Assembly (NCBI RefSeq): GCF_023111095.1
Contig: NZ_JALGYW010000003.1
Span: forward strand, 255,446-319,445
From: Maribellus sp. YY47
Lineage (GTDB): Bacteria; Bacteroidota; Bacteroidia; Bacteroidales; Prolixibacteraceae
DNA: 64,000 nt
Reading direction: 5' to 3'
The first letter of the stretch is position 1. Each line of letters starts with the position of its first letter. The position numbers and the translations under genes are program-made. The notes beneath the pieces are model-generated. The model did not search any database and was not told the DNA's origin. It worked only from the letters and a program-made list of their open reading frames with translations. Shown here one piece after another: positions 38,201 to 47,070 of the stretch.

Positions 38201-39717
38201 CGATGGCAAACGCCAACCAGGCCATGTTAACCGTATCGGGGAAACGGGGCGATCAGCCGTTTATAATGGATGTGCTTGATTTTACAACCCGCGTGGCAAC
38301 CGGAGTTCGTACCATTAATGTTACCTACAGCAAAAACGGAAGCACCGTGATGCCCGGTTATTTACCCGAGCCTGCGCTCTTTGGTGGCGGACGTTTTTCG
38401 GGTGATCCGGAATGGGGCCTTCAGAATATTGCCCCCAAAATGGCTCCCGGCTTGCCGTTCCTGATGGGTTGGCAAGACCGTGATTTTGCAGTGAAAGCCG
38501 CAGAAAACGGATGGCTCACAATCGACTCGACCCTGAACCAGCCGTTTATGTTCCGCGAAAACGAGCGGATTAACCTGCGCGTTATGCTGGAGCCCCTACC
38601 CGACTTGCGTATCGACCTCACGGGTGACCGTTCGATTTCAAAAAACATCACTGAATTCTACGATTACGATACCAACACCGGGCTATTCAACGCAAACAGT
38701 TTTACCGAAACCGGTAACTTCAGTATGTCAACGCTCACCTGGGGAACTGCTTTCTTTGCTATCGGAAAAGGAGAAGTAACCAGTTCAAAATCGTTTGAAA
38801 AATTAAAAGAATACCGCGCCATTATTGCCAACCGTCTGGCACAGCAAAGAGGAACCAGCGCCAGCTATAATCCGAATACTCCGCATTCGCAGTTCGCCGG
38901 ATATCCTGACGGGTATGGCCCGAACTCGGTAGAGGTGTTGGTACCGGCATTCCTGGCAGCCTATCAGGATAAAGATCCGAATAAGGTTTCGCTGAGTTTG
39001 TTCCCGTCGCTGAAATACATTCGCCCCAACTGGAGCATTCGTTACGAAGGAATGGTTTCACGCATTCCGGGACTAAACAAAGTTATGCGCTCGCTGAACT
39101 TCCAGCATACCTACCGTTCGAGTTACAACGTTGGTTCGTTTGTCTCCAACCTTAATTATTTGGAAACAGGTGATGGATTTAGTTACATTCGCGACTTAGC
39201 CGACAACTTTGTGCCGTCATACGATTTTAACTCGGTTAGCATTATCGAGGCATTTAATCCGCTTATCAATGTCGACGTAATGTGGCAAAGCGACTTTACC
39301 ACGCGTGGCGAAATCAAACGCTCGCGTAACCTCAACCTGTCGTTTGCCAACAATCAGCTAACCGAAGTATTAAGCAACGAATACATCATCGGGCTGGGTT
39401 ACCGGTTTACGCATATGGATGTGATCATCAAAACCAAGAACTCGCAGCAGGCATACTCCAACGATTTAAACATCAGGGCAGACATTTCGTACCGAAGAAA
39501 CAAAACCATTTTGCGTCAGCTCGATTCCGAAGATAACCAGATTACCGCAGGGCAGGGAAACTTCACCATCAAGACTTATGCTGACTACCGTTTAAGTGAT
39601 AAGTTTGAAATGCGTGTGTTCTACGACCGGATTTTAAACAATCCGTTTACATCGCTTTCTTACCGTACAACCAACGCCAATTTTGGTGTAAGTTTCAGGT
39701 TTACACTGGCCAATTAG
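32251..39717 (+). CDS. sprA: SprA, type IX secretion system outer-membrane translocon
   Basis: 2488 residues, the size expected for SprA. Signal peptide to about residue 29 (IIGAAQ). Recognisable SprA segments include the N-terminal LPYPFKDQPAFGYT, long plug/barrel regions with AVYIDDFEATKTPISLKARQSWMLASTP around residue 825 and many Asp/Asn-rich barrel turns, ending in NFGVSFRFTLAN. SprA forms the very large single-chain barrel through which folded T9SS cargo crosses the outer membrane. A low-complexity Gly/Arg/Ser/Gln stretch lies at about 1905-1935 (KFRRTGRSRGSLNRN). The gene begins 86 nt after ruvA; the gap holds three small hairpins but no convincing terminator, so co-transcription is possible. 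Confidence 0.96.
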   Translation: MKLNRSLRKIYFSLFLIFSLTLPIIGAAQDLSEIDTTGQLPYPFKDQPAFGYTRQDSQKLFLNNPSNLKYEVVYDPVLGQYVFYEKMGTLNYRLPQSMSLQDYMAYDFDQSVRAYWKQRAALEDQDQRGGLLPKLTVGSEAFNRIFGGNTINIQPQGYVEVSFGYQVNTTDNPSIPERLRKVPTFDFDQKIQMNVTGQIGTKMNMRVNYNTEATFDYENKMNIEYTGDEDEIIKRVEAGNVSLPLNGSLITGASNLFGVKTEMQFGKLNVTTIFSQHKGESKTVQTEGGAQVATFEISASNYDANRHFFLAQYFRDHYDEWLKNTAVPRSPITINKIEVWVTNKSSDFTDSRNILAFQDLGEHDPNIYNQLPQFQANLGLPYPQSIYPNNEANGLYNEMSTTYSNVRQVENISSTMAQFSQDFVGGTDFEKIEHARKLSESEYSVNERLGYISLNSALNTDEVLAVAFNFTSNGQTFQVGEFSTDGIDAPKTLFLKLLKGTNLSPGKPTWKLMMKNIYNLNAYQLTNDEFELNVVYQNDSTGTYINYLPASRLEGHILLEVMRLDMLNKQLDATKDGIFDYVEGITIDSNSGRIIFPTIEPFGKHLADSLQNPGDIERFTFQTLYDSTKVKAEQDAEHNKFKLIGSYKGSSSSDISLGSLNLAQGSVKVTAGGQVLTENIDYTVDYTLGTVKIINQALLEAGTPISVSTESEDLFTMQRKTLMGTYANYAFSDNFNIGGTLLYMQERPLTEKVDYGEDPISNLMYGFDARYNTESMLLTKALDALPFYSTNTKSSIDFEGEYAKLVPGSNRSIKNAVYIDDFEATKTPISLKARQSWMLASTPQYQSDLFPEGNTVGSLEYGMNRAKLAFYNIDPLFLRNNSLTPTHIKSDPDAQSNHYVREVFEQELFPEKEFVTGEPTNIAVLDLAYYPSERGPYNFDTGNSSFAAGVNPDGTLKNPETRWAGIMRDIQTSDFETANIEYIEFWLMDPFYYDTLGTQSGGDLYFNLGDISEDFLKDSRKGFEQGLPTSQLVDNVDTTVWGRVSTLQSLVNAFDNTPSSRRYQDIGFDGLNDDDEATYFAQYLEELRLKVNDDVYEKAMNDPSSDNFHYYRGSNYDDARLPILARYKNYNGPDGNSPTSEMSTESYPTSATTLPDIEDINDDNTLNEYERYYQYKVSVRKQDFVVGQNYITDKRSRPVELKNGDVEEISWYQFKIPVSTPDKVIGNISDFKSIRFMRMFMHGFKDSTVMRFATLDLVRAEWRRYTGDLTDELAAPSLETDFEVSAVSIEENGSREPVNYVLPPGVSRVIDPANPQLRQLNEQSMVLKATDLEQGDARAAYKSLYMDFRRYKTLKMDVHAEEVEGSSLKDDELYFFIRLGSDYNYNYYEYEIPLKLTPEGNYNNDRESDRYIVWPEENQIYVPLELFTNLKLDRNDAIRVAGSQIKINDEYIQSDPNRNNGKNRIKVKGSPNLGNVEVFMMGIRNRRGQLNTGPKSVEVWTNELRLSDFDDEGGWAANARVTARLADLGNVTVAGRKRSAGFGSIDQNVNSRSLEDQTDIDVSTSIDWGRFFPEKAGVRIPMYYGYSKSTVNPKYNPLEPDIELDQSLSRLDSKIEKDSLKSLVQDVVERKSINFTNVKVEPQKQKEKTQLWDTENFAVTYSYNETSKHNVNTEYNVDKTHRFMFSYNYSSRPKKIEPFRNVKLLQKGPLKLLGNFNFYPLPTQISYRTDLYRRYHETQTRNITNPNLILPATFEKDFLWNRYLDIRYDVTTSLKFDFSSRGTSRIDEPEGRINRRDDDYEWKRDSILTNLWDLGRPTLYNHTFNVNYQVPLRTFKALNFLTANVRYAGTYDWQAGPITDEETNIGNIISNSRNMTLSGNANLQTLFNKVPYFKEVDQKFRRTGRSRGSLNRNSSGGRQQDNQPLAKKQEENYSSNVRLVADKPQKISHKLNTKKIKVLATDTQGKVVPGKVNIIDPNTIEFTPMANANQAMLTVSGKRGDQPFIMDVLDFTTRVATGVRTINVTYSKNGSTVMPGYLPEPALFGGGRFSGDPEWGLQNIAPKMAPGLPFLMGWQDRDFAVKAAENGWLTIDSTLNQPFMFRENERINLRVMLEPLPDLRIDLTGDRSISKNITEFYDYDTNTGLFNANSFTETGNFSMSTLTWGTAFFAIGKGEVTSSKSFEKLKEYRAIIANRLAQQRGTSASYNPNTPHSQFAGYPDGYGPNSVEVLVPAFLAAYQDKDPNKVSLSLFPSLKYIRPNWSIRYEGMVSRIPGLNKVMRSLNFQHTYRSSYNVGSFVSNLNYLETGDGFSYIRDLADNFVPSYDFNSVSIIEAFNPLINVDVMWQSDFTTRGEIKRSRNLNLSFANNQLTEVLSNEYIIGLGYRFTHMDVIIKTKNSQQAYSNDLNIRADISYRRNKTILRQLDSEDNQITAGQGNFTIKTYADYRLSDKFEMRVFYDRILNNPFTSLSYRTTNANFGVSFRFTLAN

Positions 39718-39748: not shown

Positions 39749-39782
39749 TTGAAACCTTGTCTTAATTTTATTTTGATTTTTG
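39749..39782 (+). promoter_or_regulatory. Possible trp operon promoter
   Basis: TTG at 39749-39751 with TATTTTG at 39769-39775 (17-nt spacing), or GATTTTTG at 39775-39782. Neither is a perfect TAnnTTTG. A start just downstream would give a leader covering both Trp peptides. Confidence 0.35.
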
Positions 39783-39820
39783 AAAAAAATCGACTTTCTT
39801 GCATTCATTAATTGACAACA

Positions 39821-39871
39821 ATGAAAAAAACAAATACAATATGGCTTCCGTGGTGGGGTCTTCTTACGTAA
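39821..39871 (+). CDS. trp leader peptide 1
   Basis: Sixteen codons, MKKTNTIWLPWWGLLT, with Trp at positions 8, 11 and 12. Too short for normal gene calling. The stop codon TAA (39869-39871) sits in the loop of the 1:2 hairpin of the attenuator, just as in ribosome-mediated attenuators. Located before an intrinsic terminator and upstream of trpE, so its job is to report Trp-tRNA charging. Confidence 0.9.
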   Translation: MKKTNTIWLPWWGLLT

Positions 39872-39946
39872 GTTAGGAGTTAAAGAGCCATATTGGTATT
39901 TTTGAAAGATATTACAAGGCCTGCTCCTAAAAGAGCAGGTTTTTTT
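39860..39946 (+). promoter_or_regulatory. trp attenuator 1 (mutually exclusive hairpins)
   Basis: Segment 1 (39860-39867, CTTCTTAC) pairs with segment 2 (39872-39879, GTTAGGAG), seven of eight positions with one wobble. Segment 2 (TTAGGAG, 39873-39879) is perfectly complementary to CTCCTAA at 39924-39930, which overlaps the 5' arm and loop of the terminator. A ribosome stalled on the Trp codons at 39851-39856 would cover segment 1, free segment 2, form the antiterminator and allow read-through; a ribosome reaching the stop would cover segment 2 and let the terminator form. Confidence 0.85.
39920..39946 (+). terminator. Attenuator terminator 1
   Basis: CCTGCTC, 6-nt loop, GAGCAGG, then seven Ts. 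Lies between the two leader peptides. Confidence 0.92.
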
Positions 39947-39961
39947 ATACATAAAACGACA

Positions 39962-40018
39962 ATGAGAATTAACAATAATATTTGGTGGTGGCACAGCAAC
40001 TTTTTACAACATTCGTGA
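39962..40018 (+). CDS. trp leader peptide 2
   Basis: Eighteen codons, MRINNNIWWWHSNFLQHS, with three consecutive Trp codons at 39983-39991 and stop TGA at 40016-40018. It begins 16 nt after the T-run of terminator 1, so it is only made from transcripts that escaped the first attenuator. Four Asn codons are also present but are not clustered at the stall site. Confidence 0.9.
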   Translation: MRINNNIWWWHSNFLQHS

Positions 40019-40081
40019 AGAGAGGTTCTGCCATTGGCCAAAGGAGACGGCTCATCGAATTCACGATGAGCCGTTTTTTTT
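40013..40081 (+). promoter_or_regulatory. trp attenuator 2
   Basis: TCGTGAA at 40013-40019, spanning the leader stop codon, is perfectly complementary to TTCACGA at 40060-40066, which covers part of the loop and the first bases of the 3' arm of terminator 2. A ribosome stalled at the Trp codons leaves this segment free to block the terminator; a ribosome at the stop codon hides it. Unlike attenuator 1 the antiterminator invades the loop and 3' arm, and I found no clear segment that would sequester it without a ribosome. Confidence 0.6.
40047..40081 (+). terminator. Attenuator terminator 2
   Basis: Perfect eleven-pair stem ACGGCTCATCG / CGATGAGCCGT with loop AATTCA and eight Ts, 53 nt before the trpE start. 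Confidence 0.95.
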
Positions 40082-40134: not shown

Positions 40135-41544
40135 ATGGAAAAATTGACATTTAAACCTGTAGTCCGAAAGATACTGGCCGACACCGTTACACCGGTGAGC
40201 ATTTATCTTCGGTTGCGGACCTTGTATCCGAAATCCATCCTGTTGGAAAGTTCCGACTACCACGGAAATGAAAACGCCTATTCGTTTATTGCTTTCAGTC
40301 CGATGGCCCGGTTTACGGTGAACAACGGAGAAGTGGTAAAAAAACTTCCGGGAAGAGAAAAAGAAACGTTCCAACTATCACCGGAAAGAAAATTACACGA
40401 CGAACTGGATGATTTTTTCAAAACCTTCAATGTGGAAAGCAACGAAATTGAACTTCCGGCCAACGGGCTGTTTGGCTATTTGGGGTTCGATGCCGTGCAG
40501 CATTTTGAAAACATCCACTTCAGCTCTGATAAAAAAGAAGAATACCAGATTCCGGAAGTAACCTATTGCTTTTACAAATATGTGGTTGCCATCGATCACC
40601 ATAAAAATCAGATCCACATGGTGGAAAACCTGATGGAAGGCGAGCAGTCACAGATCGATTACATTCATCACCTGCTGATCAACCTGAATTTTGCAACGGC
40701 AAAGTTTGAACCGACGGGAGATGAAAAGTCGAACATCACCGACGATGAATACAAGTTGATGGTCACCAAGGGAAAAGAACACTGCTACCGAGGCGATGTC
40801 TTCCAGATCGTTTTAAGCCGGCAGTTTTCGCAGGAGTTTAAAGGCGACGATTTTAATGTTTACCGCTCGTTACGGTCCATTAATCCGTCGCCTTACTTAT
40901 TTTATTTCGATTATGGCGATTACCGCATTTTTGGTTCCAGTCCGGAAGCAGAAATCCGGATCATGAAGAACAAAGCATACATCCATCCGATTGCAGGCAC
41001 TTTTAAACGCACCGGCAACGACGATCAGGACCGCGAACTGGCAGCGCAACTCAGCAAAGATCCAAAAGAAAATGCCGAGCATGTGATGTTGGTGGATCTG
41101 GCCCGCAACGATCTGAGCCGAAATGCCGATCATGTGGTTGTGGAAACTTACCGCGAAGTTCAGTTCTTCTCACACGTCATTCATTTGGTTTCGCAGGTTT
41201 CAGGTAAAATTACCGACGATACCAACCTGATAAAAGTGCTGGGCGAAACTTTCCCGGCCGGAACCTTGTCAGGCGCGCCTAAATACAAAGCCATGGAACT
41301 GATCGACCGTTACGAAAACCAGAACCGTGGTTACTATGGAGGTTGCATCGGCTACCTCGGCTTCGACCGCACCGTGAACCATGCCATTATGATCCGATCT
41401 TTCCTGAGTAAAAATAACAAGCTTTTTTACCAGGCAGGTGCCGGCATTGTGGCCGATTCAAATGAAGAAAACGAGTTGCAGGAAGTCAACAACAAACTGG
41501 CAGCATTGAAAAAAGCCATCGAAATGGCAAAAGGAATCAATTGA
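40135..41544 (+). CDS. trpE: Anthranilate synthase component I
   Basis: 469 residues. N-terminal regulatory part has the LLES block (SILLESSDYHGNENAYSFIAFSP, about residues 34-55) where Trp binds for feedback inhibition. The chorismate-binding domain shows FGSSPEAEIRI, HPIAGTFKRTG, MLVDLARNDLSR and the FPAGTLSGAPKYKAMELI signature. It makes anthranilate from chorismate with ammonia supplied by TrpG. First structural gene of trpEGDCFBA and controlled by the tandem attenuators just upstream. Length is within the short end of the family, typical for Bacteroidota. Confidence 0.97.
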   Translation: MEKLTFKPVVRKILADTVTPVSIYLRLRTLYPKSILLESSDYHGNENAYSFIAFSPMARFTVNNGEVVKKLPGREKETFQLSPERKLHDELDDFFKTFNVESNEIELPANGLFGYLGFDAVQHFENIHFSSDKKEEYQIPEVTYCFYKYVVAIDHHKNQIHMVENLMEGEQSQIDYIHHLLINLNFATAKFEPTGDEKSNITDDEYKLMVTKGKEHCYRGDVFQIVLSRQFSQEFKGDDFNVYRSLRSINPSPYLFYFDYGDYRIFGSSPEAEIRIMKNKAYIHPIAGTFKRTGNDDQDRELAAQLSKDPKENAEHVMLVDLARNDLSRNADHVVVETYREVQFFSHVIHLVSQVSGKITDDTNLIKVLGETFPAGTLSGAPKYKAMELIDRYENQNRGYYGGCIGYLGFDRTVNHAIMIRSFLSKNNKLFYQAGAGIVADSNEENELQEVNNKLAALKKAIEMAKGIN

Positions 41545-41549
41545 GCCTC

Positions 41550-41576
41550 CCCTAACCCCTCCAAAGGAGGGGAACA
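41550..41576. repeat. REP-like hairpin in trpE-trpG gap
   Basis: CCCCTCC-AAA-GGAGGGG (41556-41572) preceded by CCTCCCCTAA. It follows the trpE stop by a few bases. No T-run, so it is more a REP-type element than a terminator; it resembles the element inside trpG. Confidence 0.75.
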
Positions 41577-41608
41577 GAAGAGCAAAAACAAACAGAAAAA
41601 AATAAAAA

Positions 41609-42244
41609 ATGGAACAAAAACAATACAAACAAGAGGATTCCCCAATCTCCTCCCCTTCGGGGAGGCCGGGAGAGGCCAATATCGTAGTAATAGACAATTA
41701 CGATTCGTTCACCTACAATTTGGTGCATGCAATCAAAAAGATTTCTGGTTTGCCGGTGGATGTGTTCCGCAACGACGAAATTAAGCTGGAAGACCTGGAA
41801 AAATACGACAAAATCGTTCTGTCTCCCGGCCCCGGAATACCTGAAGAAGCCGGGTTATTGCTGGACATTATAAAAGAATATGGTCCAAAGAAAAGTATGC
41901 TGGGCGTTTGTCTGGGACACCAGGCGATCGGGGAAGCATTCGGAGGAAAACTTCACAACATGAACCGCGTACTGCACGGTGTGGCAACTCCAGTAAAACT
42001 CACCGACAAAAAATCGATTCTGTTTGAAGGACTGCCCGAAACCTTTGACGTGGGACGTTACCACTCGTGGATTGTGCAGGATGACCAACTCCCCGAATGT
42101 TTTGAAGTAACCAGTTACGACAACAACGGAATGATCATGTCGATGAAACACCGCGATTTTGATATTCAGGGAGTCCAGTTTCACCCGGAATCGGTACTAA
42201 CACCGCTGGGAGAGAAAATGATCGAAAACTGGTTGAAATCTTAG
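41609..42244 (+). CDS. trpG: Anthranilate synthase component II (glutamine amidotransferase) with repeat-derived N-terminal extension
   Basis: 211 residues. The class I amidotransferase core starts at residue 24 (NIVVIDNYDSFTYN) and has LSPGPG, GVCLGHQAIGEAF with nucleophile Cys101, and VQFHPESVLTP with the catalytic His/Glu. Residues 1-23 (MEQKQYKQED then SPISSPSGRPGEA) are not part of the family: codons 10-23 are a GC-rich hairpin repeat (41636-41677). The core has no usable start codon of its own before residue 38, so the repeat must be translated. It hydrolyses glutamine and passes ammonia to TrpE. Confidence 0.95.
   Translation: MEQKQYKQEDSPISSPSGRPGEANIVVIDNYDSFTYNLVHAIKKISGLPVDVFRNDEIKLEDLEKYDKIVLSPGPGIPEEAGLLLDIIKEYGPKKSMLGVCLGHQAIGEAFGGKLHNMNRVLHGVATPVKLTDKKSILFEGLPETFDVGRYHSWIVQDDQLPECFEVTSYDNNGMIMSMKHRDFDIQGVQFHPESVLTPLGEKMIENWLKS
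41636..41677. repeat. REP-like element inside the 5' end of trpG
   Basis: Perfect CCTCCCC-TTC-GGGGAGG stem (41649-41665) followed by CCGGGAGAGGCC. In frame with trpG and translated. It belongs with the hairpin 80 nt upstream at 41556. Confidence 0.8.
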
Positions 42245-42312
42245 TGCACAGTCACAATTTCAGTCACAGTAATCTGATCAGTTAAAAAACACTTATTTTT
42301 TAAAATCGAATT

Positions 42313-43299
42313 ATGAAAGATACCTTACAATACCTTTTTAAAGGCAATAAACTTACCCGCGATCAGGCGAGGAACAGTTTGACAGAAGTCGGAAAAGGAC
42401 TTCACTCCGAAGCTGAATTCGCCTCCTTTCTGACGGTGTATAAGATGCGCCCGATTGAATCAGAGGAACTGGCGGGTTTTCGTGATGCCATGTTTGACCT
42501 GAGTACAAAAGTAGACTTGTCGGAATACAACGGCATTGATGTTGTGGGTACCGGCGGCGACGGAAAAAACACCTTTAATATTTCGACGCTGGCCTGCTTT
42601 GTGATTGCCGGAACCGGTTTAAATGTTACCAAACACGGTAATTACGCAGCCAGTTCCACCACCGGTTCATCAAACGTTTTGGAATACCTCGGCTATCAGT
42701 TTAGCAACGATATCAGCAAATTAAAAAAAGATTTGGACGAGGGCGGATTCTGCTTTTTACATGCTCCACTGTTTCACCCTGCGTTTAAACACATTGCACC
42801 GGTCCGAAAAGCGCTGAAAGTCCCCACTTTCTTTAACATTCTTGGGCCCATGATCAATCCGTCGGCACCAAAATATCAATTGCTGGGGGTGAATAATCCT
42901 GAAAATTTTGAGCATTATCGGAAGGTTTATGAAACACTGGATATTAACTTTGCGATAGTGAACAGCAACGACGGTTACGACGAAATTTCGCTGACATCGG
43001 AGGCTCGCTATGCCACCCGTGGAAAAGAGACACAACTGGCACCTGCTGATTTTGGGTTAACAACGATTGAACCGGCCAAATTGCATGGCGGAAAATCGGT
43101 GGAAGATGCAGCAAAGATCTTTATGAATGTGCTGAACGGAAATGCTACAGAAGAGCAAACCAATGCGGTTCTGGCCAACGCGGCACTCGGATTGAATCTG
43201 GTTTATCCTGACAAAACGCTGAAAGATTGCATCTCGATGGCGCGTGAATCTCTGGAAAGTGGGAAAGCACTCCAAAAATTAAAAGCCGTGATCAAATAA
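42313..43299 (+). CDS. trpD: Anthranilate phosphoribosyltransferase
   Basis: 328 residues, normal length. Signature blocks: VVGTGGDGKNTFNIST (PRPP loop), KHGNYAASSTTGSSNVLEYLG, FFNILGPMINPSAP, and the SNDGYDEISL motif with acidic Mg ligands. It joins anthranilate to PRPP. Third gene of the trp operon, 68 nt after trpG; the gap shows no terminator. Confidence 0.97.
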   Translation: MKDTLQYLFKGNKLTRDQARNSLTEVGKGLHSEAEFASFLTVYKMRPIESEELAGFRDAMFDLSTKVDLSEYNGIDVVGTGGDGKNTFNISTLACFVIAGTGLNVTKHGNYAASSTTGSSNVLEYLGYQFSNDISKLKKDLDEGGFCFLHAPLFHPAFKHIAPVRKALKVPTFFNILGPMINPSAPKYQLLGVNNPENFEHYRKVYETLDINFAIVNSNDGYDEISLTSEARYATRGKETQLAPADFGLTTIEPAKLHGGKSVEDAAKIFMNVLNGNATEEQTNAVLANAALGLNLVYPDKTLKDCISMARESLESGKALQKLKAVIK

Positions 43300-43382
43300 A
43301 CCGTCATTTTGTTCCAACAAGAGCGCTGATTAAAACGCTATCTTGTAAAGCGAAGTGCATAAAAAGACTAATACATACGAAA

Positions 43383-44165
43383 ATGACAATTCTCGACAAA
43401 ATCATTGAAGCCAAAAGAGAAGAAATCAATCACCAGAAACAGCTGGTCGACATTGAGGTACTGCAAGATATACCCGATTTCTTCAGGGATTGTAACTCAC
43501 TGAAAGGGAGCCTGCTAAAACCCGGTTCTTCGGGAATAATTGCCGAATTCAAACAACGTTCTCCCTCCAAAGGCGATATTAACCTCACCGCCCGGGTAGA
43601 AGACGTTACCAAAGCATACGCTAAAGCCGGTGCTGCGGGCTTATCGGTCCTGACTGAAAAGAACTTTTTTGGCGGATCGCAGGCCAACCTGGTAAAGGCA
43701 CGCGAAATTAACCCCGATATTCCGATCCTGAGAAAAGATTTTATGATCGATCCGTACCAACTGGTGGAAGCCAAAGCCTACGGAGCCGATGTAATTCTGC
43801 TCATTGCTGCCTGCCTTTCAAAAGAACTGGCGCTTGAGCTGGCGGAGGAAGCAAAAGAATTGGGACTGGAGGTTTTAATGGAAATCCACAACGCTGAAGA
43901 GCTGGAGATTGTTAACGACTTTGTGGATATTGTGGGCGTAAACAACCGCAACCTGAAAACCTTTGACGTAAGTGTCGAAACATCGGTGGAGCTTTCAAAA
44001 CTGATTCCCGACAGGTTTGTAAAAATATCGGAAAGCGGACTGGCAGGCGTTAAGGAAATTCATTACCTGCGCGACTACGGTTTTAAAGGATTCCTCATCG
44101 GAGAAACATTTATGAAAACCCAGGACCCGGGTAAAGCCTGTAAAAAGTTTATTCAACAACTATAA
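43383..44165 (+). CDS. trpC: Indole-3-glycerol phosphate synthase
   Basis: 260 residues, TIM barrel. Catalytic and phosphate-binding motifs are complete: IIAEFKQRSPSKG, VLTEKNFFGGS, ILRKDFMIDPYQL, VLMEIHNAEEL, VGVNNRNLKTF and KISESGL. It closes the indole ring from carboxyphenylamino-deoxyribulose phosphate. Separate from TrpF here (not fused as in enterobacteria). 83 nt after trpD. Confidence 0.97.
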   Translation: MTILDKIIEAKREEINHQKQLVDIEVLQDIPDFFRDCNSLKGSLLKPGSSGIIAEFKQRSPSKGDINLTARVEDVTKAYAKAGAAGLSVLTEKNFFGGSQANLVKAREINPDIPILRKDFMIDPYQLVEAKAYGADVILLIAACLSKELALELAEEAKELGLEVLMEIHNAEELEIVNDFVDIVGVNNRNLKTFDVSVETSVELSKLIPDRFVKISESGLAGVKEIHYLRDYGFKGFLIGETFMKTQDPGKACKKFIQQL

Positions 44166-44267
44166 CGATCATTTCGAAACAGGTCAGTTAACGGAAATTA
44201 AAAGTCGGTTCAACAGAAGACTTCATTTCCTGTACACACTGACATTGAAATACACAAGGAAAAAGAA

Positions 44268-44891
44268 GTGGAAAGAAAACTGAAAATAAAAGTCTGTGGA
44301 ATGAAGTTCACAGAAAACCGTGAGGAAGTAGAAAAACTCGGTGTTGATTTGTTGGGCTATATTTTTTATGAACCGTCAAGTCGTTTTGTGGGACAACATC
44401 CTGATTCCGGGCTTTTTAACTCCGACATGCCCAAAGTTGGTGTTTTTGTCAACGAAAATGCCTTTGAAATACTCGGACTGGCCAAAAACCTGGATTTGGA
44501 TTATATCCAGCTCCACGGAAAAGAAAATCCCAAAACCTGCGCCATGCTCCGAAAACAGGGATTGAAAGTTATTAAAGCTTTTTCGGTGGACGATTCTTTC
44601 AGTTTTGAAACCACGCAAGCCTACGAGAAAGAGGTCGATTATTTTCTGTTCGATACAAAAACCAAACTGCATGGCGGATCAGGGGAAAAATTCAACTGGA
44701 AAATATTAAATAAATACACGGGGTACAAACCGTTTTTTTTAAGCGGTGGCATTGGGCCCGATGATGCAGAAGAAATCCAAAAGATCGATCATCCAAAACT
44801 TACCGGGATTGATTTGAACAGCGGGTTCGAAGATGAACCGGGACGTAAAAACATTGAAAAGCTGAAACGATTTATTGAAGAATTAAAATAA
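44268..44891 (+). CDS. trpF: Phosphoribosylanthranilate isomerase
   Basis: 207 residues from a GTG start at 44268; the next Met (residue 11) lies inside the essential KVCGM motif, so GTG is the only sensible start. Further motifs: GYIFYEPSSRFVG, PKVGVFVNE, DYIQLHGKE, FLFDTKTKLHGGSGEKFNW (catalytic Asp) and LSGGIGPDDA, GIDLNSGFE. It performs the Amadori rearrangement before TrpC. The weak GTG start may lower its yield. 102 nt after trpC, followed by a REP-like hairpin. Confidence 0.96.
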   Translation: MERKLKIKVCGMKFTENREEVEKLGVDLLGYIFYEPSSRFVGQHPDSGLFNSDMPKVGVFVNENAFEILGLAKNLDLDYIQLHGKENPKTCAMLRKQGLKVIKAFSVDDSFSFETTQAYEKEVDYFLFDTKTKLHGGSGEKFNWKILNKYTGYKPFFLSGGIGPDDAEEIQKIDHPKLTGIDLNSGFEDEPGRKNIEKLKRFIEELK

Positions 44892-44896
44892 CAGAC

Positions 44897-44956
44897 GCTT
44901 GTCTTTCCTGCGCAAGCAGGAAACTCAACAGATTCTCGTTCCACGGGAATGACTTA
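44897..44956. repeat. REP-like element between trpF and trpB
   Basis: Perfect stem TTTCCTGC-GCAA-GCAGGAAA (44904-44923), then a second part with TTCCACGGGAA near 44940-44950 and GAATGAC. This pairing of a CCTGC hairpin with a CGGGAATGAC end is common as a dispersed element in Bacteroidota; no T-run. Confidence 0.7.
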
Positions 44957-44958
44957 AG

Positions 44959-46155
44959 ATGAAAGAAAATAAAATGAAATATCAAGTTAACGAAAAAGGA
45001 TATTACGGTGAATTTGGCGGGGCCTGGATTCCGGAAATGATGTATACCAACATCGAAGAGTTAAAAACCAGGTACCTTGAAATCATCGAAGCAGAAGAAT
45101 TCAAAAGCGAGTTCGATAAACTCATGAAAGACTATGTGGGCAGGCCATCGCCACTTTATTATGCCAGCCGTCTTTCGGAACATTACGGATCAAAAATCTT
45201 TTTGAAACGCGAAGATCTGAACCACACCGGTTCACACAAGCTGAACAATACCATTGGACAAATACTGCTGGCTCAGAAACTGGGAAAAACAAGAATTATT
45301 GCTGAAACCGGGGCAGGTCAGCACGGTGTAGCAACCGCAACAGTTTGTGCACTGAAAGGAATAAAATGCGTGGTTTACATGGGAGCGCTTGATGTTTCGC
45401 GCCAGGCACCCAACGTAAAAAAGATGAAAATGCTGGGCGCCGAAGTGGTACCCGTTCACAGTGGCAACAAAACCTTAAAAGACGCTACCAACGAAGCCAT
45501 GCGCGACTGGATCAACAATCCGGAAGATACGCACTACATTATTGGCTCGGTAGTGGGGCCGCACCCCTACCCCGACATGGTGGCCCGTTTCCAATCGGTG
45601 ATCAGCAAGGAAATGAGGGGCCAGTTGCTCGAACAAACCGGTTCTGAACTGCCCACCCGCGTGCTCGCTTGCGTTGGAGGAGGAAGCAACGCCGCGGGAG
45701 CTTTTTATCATTTTCTGGACGACGAACAAGTGGAACTGATTGGCGTGGAAGCCGCAGGAAAAGGAGTGGACACCGACGAAACCGCGGCCACACTCACCGT
45801 TGGTTCTCCCGGAGTTTTACATTCGGCGCGAACGATGCTGATGCAAACAGAAGACGGACAAATTATTGAACCGTATTCCATCTCGGCAGGACTTGATTAC
45901 CCTGGAATCGGCCCGCTGCACGCTCACCTGCACAAAACCGGCCGTGCAAAATTTCTGGCCGCCACCGACGAAGAAGTATTACAGTCGGTATTGCTGCTCA
46001 CTCAAAAGGAAGGTATCATTCCCGCATTGGAATCGGCACACGCTTTGGCGGCGCTCGACAAAATAAAAATGAATCCGGACGACGTAAATGTGATCAATCT
46101 TTCGGGTAGTGGTAACAAAGACATGGAAACCTACCTTAACTATTTTGGATATTAA
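44959..46155 (+). CDS. trpB: Tryptophan synthase beta chain
   Basis: 398 residues (start could also be Met6 at 44974). YGEFGGAWIPEMMYTNIEEL at the N-terminus, PLYYASRLSEHYG, the PLP lysine block REDLNHTGSHKLNNTIGQ, AETGAGQHGVATAT, the phosphate-binding CVGGGSNAAGAF and the closing LSGSGNKDMETY. Standard TrpB1. It condenses indole with serine. Fifth enzyme gene position in the operon, flanked on both sides by REP-like elements. Confidence 0.98.
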   Translation: MKENKMKYQVNEKGYYGEFGGAWIPEMMYTNIEELKTRYLEIIEAEEFKSEFDKLMKDYVGRPSPLYYASRLSEHYGSKIFLKREDLNHTGSHKLNNTIGQILLAQKLGKTRIIAETGAGQHGVATATVCALKGIKCVVYMGALDVSRQAPNVKKMKMLGAEVVPVHSGNKTLKDATNEAMRDWINNPEDTHYIIGSVVGPHPYPDMVARFQSVISKEMRGQLLEQTGSELPTRVLACVGGGSNAAGAFYHFLDDEQVELIGVEAAGKGVDTDETAATLTVGSPGVLHSARTMLMQTEDGQIIEPYSISAGLDYPGIGPLHAHLHKTGRAKFLAATDEEVLQSVLLLTQKEGIIPALESAHALAALDKIKMNPDDVNVINLSGSGNKDMETYLNYFGY

Positions 46156-46157
46156 AG

Positions 46158-46261
46158 CCCCTCTCCAACCTCTCCCCAAAAGGAAGAGGCTAAGAAATGG
46201 CAAATACAATATGAAACAAACTTTGCTTTCTAAAGTCCCCCTCCGGGGGATTTAGGGGGCT
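46158..46261. repeat. Two REP-like hairpins between trpB and trpA
   Basis: First: CCTCT...AGAGG around 46169-46189 (imperfect, loop CAAAA region). Second: TCCCCC-TCC-GGGGGA at 46236-46250 followed by TTTAGGGGGC. Both without T-runs, so translation and transcription into trpA should continue. Confidence 0.7.
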
Positions 46262-46275
46262 GAAACAAGCAAATC

Positions 46276-47070
46276 ATGAACAACAGGATCAATCAACTTT
46301 TTGAATCAAAAAAGGAAAATATATTTTCAGTATACTTTACCGCAGGATTTCCGAATCTGGATGACACGGTAAAAATTATCCAGGAACTGGAAAAAAACGG
46401 CGCGGATTTGATCGAGATCGGAATGCCGTTCTCAGATCCGACCGCTGACGGCCCCACGGTACAACGCAGCAGCGAAATTGCATTGAAAAACGGAATGAAC
46501 CTCAGGCTTTTATTTGAGCAACTGAAAGACATCCGGAAATCAGTAAATATTCCGCTGATTTTGATGGGCTATCTGAATCCAGTGTATCAATATGGTGTTG
46601 AGGCGTTTTGCCGGAAATGTGCAGAAATCGGCATCGACGGAACCATTCTGCCCGATCTTCCGCTGGATGAATTCGAAGCAGAATACCGCAAATATTTTGA
46701 AGCCAGCAACCTGCACAATATTTTGCTGATCACTCCTCAAACATCAGAAAAAAGAATCAAGCAGATTGATGAAGCATCGGAGGGATTTATTTACATGGTT
46801 TCTTCGTCGTCAACCACCGGAGCTGGTAAAAAAGTGGAAGACTTTCACGTAGATTATTTTGAACGCGTTCAGAACATGAACCTGAAAAATCCGCGCCTGA
46901 TCGGCTTTGGGATTTCAGACCATGCAACCTTCTCGAATGCCTGTAAATACGCGCAGGGAGCTATCATTGGCAGCGCATTTGTAAACGCCATTAAAGACTC
47001 CGTTAACCTTGAAAAAGATATTGCAACATTTGTAAAAAGCATCGATCCGGGAGGTAAAGCACTTCTCTAA
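46276..47070 (+). CDS. trpA: Tryptophan synthase alpha chain
   Basis: 264 residues. Motifs: YFTAGFPNLDDTVKII, LIEIGMPFSDPTADGPTVQRSS with the catalytic Glu and Asp, ILMGYLNPVYQYG, GTILPDLPLDEFE, YMVSSSSTTGA and GFGISDHATF, GAIIGSAFVNAI. It cleaves indole-glycerol phosphate and channels indole to TrpB. Last enzyme gene of the operon. Confidence 0.97.
   Translation: MNNRINQLFESKKENIFSVYFTAGFPNLDDTVKIIQELEKNGADLIEIGMPFSDPTADGPTVQRSSEIALKNGMNLRLLFEQLKDIRKSVNIPLILMGYLNPVYQYGVEAFCRKCAEIGIDGTILPDLPLDEFEAEYRKYFEASNLHNILLITPQTSEKRIKQIDEASEGFIYMVSSSSTTGAGKKVEDFHVDYFERVQNMNLKNPRLIGFGISDHATFSNACKYAQGAIIGSAFVNAIKDSVNLEKDIATFVKSIDPGGKALL

Follow-up and report, generated by a model that had tools for sequence, protein, structure and literature searches.

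Probable serial double trp attenuator upstream of trpE, with a nearly invariant hairpin element within its first unit, in Prolixibacteraceae

The trp attenuation model of Escherichia coli is the source of the stalling and masking logic that is applied below, and some trp operons are known to carry tandem T-boxes. Attenuators of trp genes have been described in Actinobacteria (PMC1262725), and a Bacteroid-trp RNA (RF01692) was reported by Weinberg et al. (2010; PMC2864571). The mgtCBR leader of Salmonella is reported to carry tandem attenuators with two short ORFs (Lee and Groisman, 2012; PMC3641672), and the same paper refers to tandem riboswitches with two intrinsic terminators for metE of B. 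clausii. Tandem attenuation is thus already known from mgtCBR. Among the matches listed in our literature search, as far as their titles and the first lines of their abstracts tell, none reports leader-peptide attenuators that respond in series to a single amino acid.

The trp locus examined here belongs to a 5.0 Mb genome and lies in a window of 64,000 nucleotides (the whole stretch of DNA that was analysed). Its TrpE protein has that of Maribellus sp. CM-23 as its closest named relative among the matches listed (95%), which places the locus in or near Prolixibacteraceae. On the plus strand, an ORF of 2488 residues, recognized as sprA-like, ends at 39717, and the trpE start codon (ATG) lies at 40135. 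Between these points are found leader 1, a first terminator (T1), leader 2 and a second terminator (T2), in that order. Homologue searches used trpE alone, and the other trp genes were named by recognition and order. The features are as follows.

39772 to 39801, plus strand: candidate promoter of the Bacteroidota type, TTTG (39772-39775), 18 nt, CTTTCTTG (39794-39801), proposed by its similarity to the Bacteroidota consensus and by a comparable arrangement, as judged by eye, upstream of 50 loci.
39821 to 39871, plus strand: leader peptide 1, MKKTNTIWLPWWGLLT, read directly; an upstream in-frame ATG accompanies T1 in 80/97 family leaders.
39837 to 39895, plus strand: hairpin element 1, from a covariance model, folds and per-sequence stem scoring.
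39873 to 39930, plus strand: antiterminator 1, TTAGGAGT (39873-39880) with GCTCCTAA (39923-39930), from native versus swapped or shuffled duplexes.
39917 to 39946, plus strand: intrinsic terminator T1, from letters read directly, fold against shuffles and energy.
39962 to 40018, plus strand: leader peptide 2, MRINNNIWWWHSNFLQHS, read directly, with similar units in relatives.
40000 to 40022, plus strand: protector stem of unit 2, CTTTTTAC (40000-40007) with GTGAAGAG (40015-40022), from the minimum-energy fold.
40013 to 40066, plus strand: antiterminator 2, TCGTGAA (40013-40019) with TTCACGA (40060-40066), from native versus swapped pairs.
40047 to 40081, plus strand: intrinsic terminator T2, on the same evidence as T1.
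40135 to 47070, plus strand: trpE, trpG, trpD, trpC, trpF, trpB and trpA, from the ORF list, with names by recognition and order.

An earlier note on this DNA had claimed two Trp-rich leaders in series before trpE, each with its own terminator, and the letters together with a shuffle control confirm this arrangement. In both leaders a short ORF whose Trp codons are clustered precedes the trp genes, an intrinsic terminator separates ORF and gene, and there is an antiterminator that excludes the terminator and that a ribosome at the stop codon could mask. Leader 1 runs from ATG (39821-39823) to TAA (39869-39871) with Trp at codons 8, 11 and 12 (39842-39844 and 39851-39856), and leader 2 from ATG (39962-39964) to TGA (40016-40018) with Trp at codons 8-10 (39983-39991). 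The T1 stem, CCTGCTC/GAGCAGG inside 39920-39939, is followed by seven T residues (39940-39946) and has an energy of -14.2 kcal/mol; the T2 stem, ACGGCTCATCG/CGATGAGCCGT (40047-40074), precedes a T-run that ends at 40081 and reaches -22.3 kcal/mol. T1 is the weaker terminator, and it fell below the score of our script in six genomes, where it was read by eye. A generic terminator scan listed neither T1 nor T2. Units 1 and 2 fold better than their shuffles (z of -3.8 and -7.9, respectively). We also scanned leaders for units, defined as an ATG ORF with clustered Trp codons plus a hairpin and T-run within 110 nt. The 95 real leaders that bear element 1 yielded two units in 70 cases, one in 24 and none in one, compared with a mean of 0.000 units after shuffling (10 shuffles per leader).

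The segment that follows the leader 1 stop codon (39873-39880) is able to form a duplex with the T1 5′ arm (39923-39930). Among 58 unique pairs from 72 genomes, taken without correction for kinship, the native duplex is stronger than the swapped one in 51 and not stronger in seven, and it exceeds the mean shuffled strength in all 58. The mean energies of these pairs are -10.16 (native), -7.96 (swapped) and -6.29 kcal/mol (shuffled); the six genomes whose T1 was missed by the script were left out, as were G404 and G456. Double changes that keep the pairing include TTAGAAG/CTTCTAA in G026 and TGAGAAG/CTTCTCA in G040. Antiterminator 2, which links the stop region of leader 2 to T2, was scored in the 143 of 159 sequences that yielded a unit. 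Its native pairing beats the swapped one in 119 of 129 unique pairs (10 fail; again without kinship correction) and in 40 of 45 pairs from loci outside the element-bearing set, with means of -15.42 (native), -12.54 (swapped) and -8.95 kcal/mol (shuffled). The unit 2 pairing is kept in relatives even though its letters vary, and similar units are present in a large part of the Bacteroidales sampled and also in Tenacibaculum. The claim of two complete attenuators in series therefore stands, with order and Trp codons kept and with both antiterminators passing the comparison of native and swapped pairs.

We conclude that this leader is very probably a serial double attenuator, with two ribosome-mediated trp units ahead of trpEGDCFBA. 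Its anatomy and both antiterminator pairings are supported by sequence and covariation, and the stalling, masking and Trp dependence are presumed from the E. coli trp model. T1 could instead be the terminator of the sprA-like gene, with unit 2 alone controlling trp, since this 2488-residue ORF does end at 39717. Such an arrangement is extremely improbable: a promoter-like stretch, seen by eye, separates the sprA-like gene from leader 1, ORF 1 and T1 are gained or lost together among relatives, and antiterminator 1 covaries.

The serial attenuator reading places transcription initiation before leader 1. Bacteroidota use a promoter consensus other than the E. coli type, and from the candidate promoter of this kind a start is expected near 39807. 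Inspection of 50 unaligned loci by eye revealed a TTTG ... TTCTTG/TTTTG arrangement located 20-35 nt upstream of leader 1 or of the hairpin, and an unsystematic look between T1 and leader 2 revealed no kept promoter there. A generic promoter scan, which reported 13 sites where 14.8 were expected by chance, placed an E. coli type site, TTGACA-17-TACAAT (11/12), at 39812-39840, spanning the beginning of leader 1. Use of this site would put the transcription start within leader 1, and unit 1 would then not function in the way proposed here. The TACAAT portion falls in the kept block. The site was set aside as the less likely promoter because the number of sites does not exceed chance, the TTGACA portion is not kept in relatives and the Bacteroidota consensus differs.

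The following sequence of events is proposed. RNA polymerase would initiate near 39807 and transcribe leader 1. A shortage of charged tRNA-Trp would stall a ribosome at Trp codons 11-12 of leader 1, where it would cover the 5′ strand (39860-39864) of an inner stem termed P2. Nucleotides 39873-39880 would then be free to form a duplex with the T1 5′ arm, which would keep T1 from forming. When Trp suffices, the ribosome would reach the stop codon (39869-39871) and mask 39873-39880, and T1 would end transcription. RNA that extends past T1 would undergo an equivalent Trp test in unit 2, where another ribosome would translate leader 2 ahead of T2, and only RNA that passes both terminators would reach trpE.

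A covariance model of element 1 found matches in 48 of 101 relatives. By eye, 46 of these 48 lie on the trpE strand upstream of trpE, and those in G001 and G021 are split across contigs. At an E value of 0.05 the model matched 101 of 140 family genomes, one of which was judged spurious, leaving 100. Across Bacteroidota it matched one of 296 sampled genomes, that of the window itself; distant copies may be missed because searches of more than 40 genomes used stricter filters. We assembled 100 stretches, 95 of which were parsed automatically by requiring TGGTGGG, ATATGG or GTATGG, and GCCATAT. The five others comprise G001 (too short), the C112 hit of G057 and the second hit of G411 (both without the core), and G404 and G456, which were read by eye.

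The comparison of trpE leaders in related genomes that had been proposed in the earlier note showed that both T1 and leader 1, the latter recognized by an upstream in-frame ATG, are present in 80 of the 97 Prolixibacteraceae leaders read (72 by script, six with sub-threshold T1 by eye, plus G404 and G456). Neither feature is present in 15 of the 97, 14 of them found by script and the other being G427, which was reassigned to this class after the script had taken its T2 for T1. In G046 and G054 an AUG occurs only within the stem and T1 is absent, which brings the hairpin genomes without T1 to 17. In the 16 such leaders that were measured, 19-27 nt separate the end of GCCATAT from the leader 2 start codon.

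The same scan of a comparison set of 64 leaders gave one unit in 47, none in 14 and two in three (G059, G066 and L167). The first unit of L167 is taken as a chance match in the upstream gene. The other two, L163 (G059, Prolixibacteraceae) and L168 (G066, another family), are tandem trp units without element 1, each unit with its own antiterminator pairing. The tandem attenuators of L168 lie upstream of trpE and are of the ordinary WWW type. L162 (G037), a relative of the element carriers on the TrpE tree, has a single unit, and G059 has two units without the hairpin.

On a quick, midpoint-rooted tree of 107 TrpE proteins, the element-bearing rows form one clade (SH-aLRT 97), which also contains the element-free G059 and G037. 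Traits were coded by hand, with G046 and G054 as lacking the ORF, and L023 and L050 were omitted because their contigs end. ORF 1 and T1 change three times on this tree and element 1 twice. The state without ORF 1 occurs in a group of L085, G427 and G046, in G469, and in a group of Sunxiuqinia, Mangrovibacterium, Gaoshiqia, G411 and G054. Joint change of ORF 1 and T1 gives p of 0.25, three changes being too few for significance.

In three relatives, L245 (G022), L246 (G045) and L046, nucleotidyltransferase-like and HepT-like genes occupy about 600 nt between T1 and leader 2. This pair resembles MNT/HEPN toxin-antitoxin pairs: Pfam assigns one L245 protein to PF18765 and PF01909 and one L246 protein to PF01934, and the L046 pair was recognized by eye. 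In G022, where the second gene appears to be interrupted, and in G045, the last stop codon of the pair overlaps the leader 2 ATG. Unless it is served by a separate promoter, an MNT/HEPN-like pair in this position would lie under the control of attenuator 1.

With serial attenuators for one amino acid, nature provides a way to test the benefit of a second checkpoint, which might be reduced leak, a steeper response or the filtering of noise. Because the family supplies matched natural variants, namely ORF 1 and T1 with the hairpin (80 leaders), the hairpin without ORF 1 and T1 (15 leaders), and ORF 1 and T1 without the hairpin (G059), each layer should be separately measurable.

Element 1 consists of a nearly invariant outer stem and a UGGUGGGG loop. 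The outer stem, P1, is formed by CAATATGGCT (39837-39846) and AGCCATATTG (39886-39895), the 5′ internal loop contains TGGTGGGG (39851-39858), and P2 joins CTTCT (39860-39864) to AGGAG (39875-39879). Among the 95 parsed sequences, the P1 5′ arm reads AATATGGCT in 91, the loop TGGTGGGG in 94 and the 3′ arm AGCCATATTG in 86, counts that are raised by the parsing rule, which required core letters. Of the leaders read by eye, G404 has a mismatch in P1 and G456 a G-U change. RNAalifold revealed no change on both sides at any P1 core pair, and the pairing of P1 rests on near-invariance because the stem does not covary. P2 is kept with different letters (CTTCT/AGAAG, TCCCG/CGGGA, CTCT/AGAG, TCCTTC/GAAGGA). 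Since the aligner displaces this stem by one base, P2 was scored sequence by sequence instead of through column-based counts. Scored in this way, P2 is more stable than shuffles (p <= 0.1) in 14 of 16 unique sequences without T1 and in 34 of 38 sequences with the ORF, and the comparison of native and swapped stems is weak (35/54). The automatic choice of the P2 stem looks wrong for some ORF rows (e.g. nine with TCTTA/TAAGA and two with CAACA/TGTTG).

The lack of P1 covariation and the constancy of its arms are also what a DNA operator would exhibit, with the inverted repeat CAATATGGC..GCCATATTG bound by a regulator rather than folded as RNA. We regard this as quite unlikely, given that the span from one arm to the other ranges between 47 and 57 nt, changing one base at a time, and that the inner stem persists with altered letters.

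The stretch AATACAATATGGCTTCCGTGGTGGGGTCTTCTT is almost invariant as nucleotides, beyond what its amino acids would require. Of 50 loci, 45 have a block that reads WLPWWGLL, and in these we compared silent sites for residues N, T, I, L, P and G. Codons for the same residue are identical in 5190 of 5328 comparisons (97.4%) in the block of the 37 loci with the ORF, versus 42869 of 92903 (46.1%) in trpE. In the eight loci without the ORF, identity is 224/224 in the block versus 1752/3949 in trpE. Because the letters are fixed at silent sites and persist where the upstream start codon and T1 are absent, element 1 seems to be under a second constraint at the RNA level that goes beyond attenuation.

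Alternatively, the usual demands on an attenuator (peptide, protector stem and antiterminator) might together be enough to fix the nucleotides of leader 1, and the copies without ORF 1 and T1 might have decayed recently. P2 and the segment after the stop codon do serve double duty in lineages with the ORF. This account is somewhat unlikely. The eight loci without the ORF keep all of their block codons while trpE is near saturation, and the state without the ORF occurs at three places on the tree. Moreover, ordinary units tolerate change: the letters of unit 2 vary while its pairing is retained, and those of unit 1 in G059 are different. Element 1 hardly varies, and a further reason for the hairpin is needed.

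That further reason might still be translation if the relatives without ORF 1 read the Trp frame from a non-AUG start, for example an AUA located 21 nt before UGGUGG. Such an AUA is present in 12/12 of the no-ORF genomes with the longer (CCG) loop, most of them from one clade, and in G046 and G054 an AUG inside P1 is in frame with the Trp codons. This possibility is unlikely, however, as a stop codon lies 18 to 27 nt upstream of UGGUGG in 7 of the 17 genomes without T1, the frame ends 27 to 243 nt past UGGUGG and its end is therefore not kept, and these genomes have no T1 to control.

An AUG inside P1 (39841-39843) opens a second frame, MASVVGSS.., which fuses to leader 2 in 5 of the 17 genomes without T1. 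It was not treated as a kept gene because the fusion is absent from the remaining ones.

Leader peptide 1 might also act in trans, in the manner of the leader peptide peTrpL known in Sinorhizobium (PMC7298713), since NTIWLPWWGLL is nearly invariant in much of the family. A trans-acting peptide is nevertheless very unlikely to account for the conservation: silent sites are equally fixed, the block persists without an upstream ATG, and relatives that bear the ORF encode IWLWWGNTF, VWCPWWGLL or VWHLWWGLL.

Recognition of the stem and the UGGUGGGG loop without translation would be the simplest account of element 1, though a constraint of some other kind may also be at work. We tentatively propose, as one possibility, that element 1 represents a novel leader RNA of trp operons, seen to date only in Prolixibacteraceae, whose stem and loop are directly recognized by a ligand, tRNA or protein without being translated. 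In most lineages it would double as the coding region and protector stem of an extra attenuator, such that two sensing mechanisms share one RNA before a second, ordinary trp attenuator. If the hairpin is indeed read without translation, a second kind of trp-operon sensor would lie concealed beneath the leader peptide.

Two candidate partners of the hairpin were considered and rejected. T-box-like pairing of the loop with the 3′ end or anticodon of tRNA-Trp (gene end CTCCCGTGC) gave no convincing match by eye in this genome. RNAalifold on 14 of the 17 leaders without T1 (G450, G466 and G054 were not in the alignment) recovered P1, the unit 2 stems and T2, and revealed no kept link between element 1 and either leader 2 or T2.

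No Rfam family reached its gathering score in the window leader. RF01692 scored 30.9 bits on leader 1, below its gathering score of 49, and gave no match on leader 2 up to an E value of 10. T-box and riboswitch families gave no match up to an E value of 1 in 16 loci, including seven without T1 (L066, L067, L069, L072, L085, L151 and L153), and in the window leader up to an E value of 10 they gave none besides a PyrR match below cut-off that spans both terminators. A GlmZ match in L059 (32.5 bits versus a cut-off of 60) looks like a resemblance between terminators and was dismissed. The trpE leader of a Tenacibaculum (L097:1345-1462) scores 46.6 bits with RF01692, just under the gathering score; this cut-off may miss other true trp leaders of Bacteroidota.

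Like the E. coli trp attenuator, the leader described here has adjacent Trp codons in a short ORF, a protector stem, an antiterminator, an intrinsic terminator and a stop codon placed for masking. It differs in having two full units in series, the first with a hairpin of nearly fixed sequence. Bacteroid-trp RNA likewise belongs to Trp leaders of Bacteroidota and has an outer stem that encloses UGGUGG, but its model covers one unit and does not include the UGGUGGGG hairpin. As read from the sequences, what appears to be new here is the conservation of the leader 1 core at the nucleotide level and the persistence of the hairpin in some relatives that lack ORF 1 and T1. The mgtCBR leader is reported (PMC3641672) also to place two short ORFs in one leader, each belonging to an attenuator; its two signals differ (ATP and proline) and its attenuators are not intrinsic-terminator-like, whereas both units here have Trp codons and intrinsic terminators. 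The B. clausii metE riboswitches, to which the same paper refers, and the tandem T-boxes share serial sensing within one leader, but in those systems the RNA senses directly, whereas here a translating ribosome would do so.
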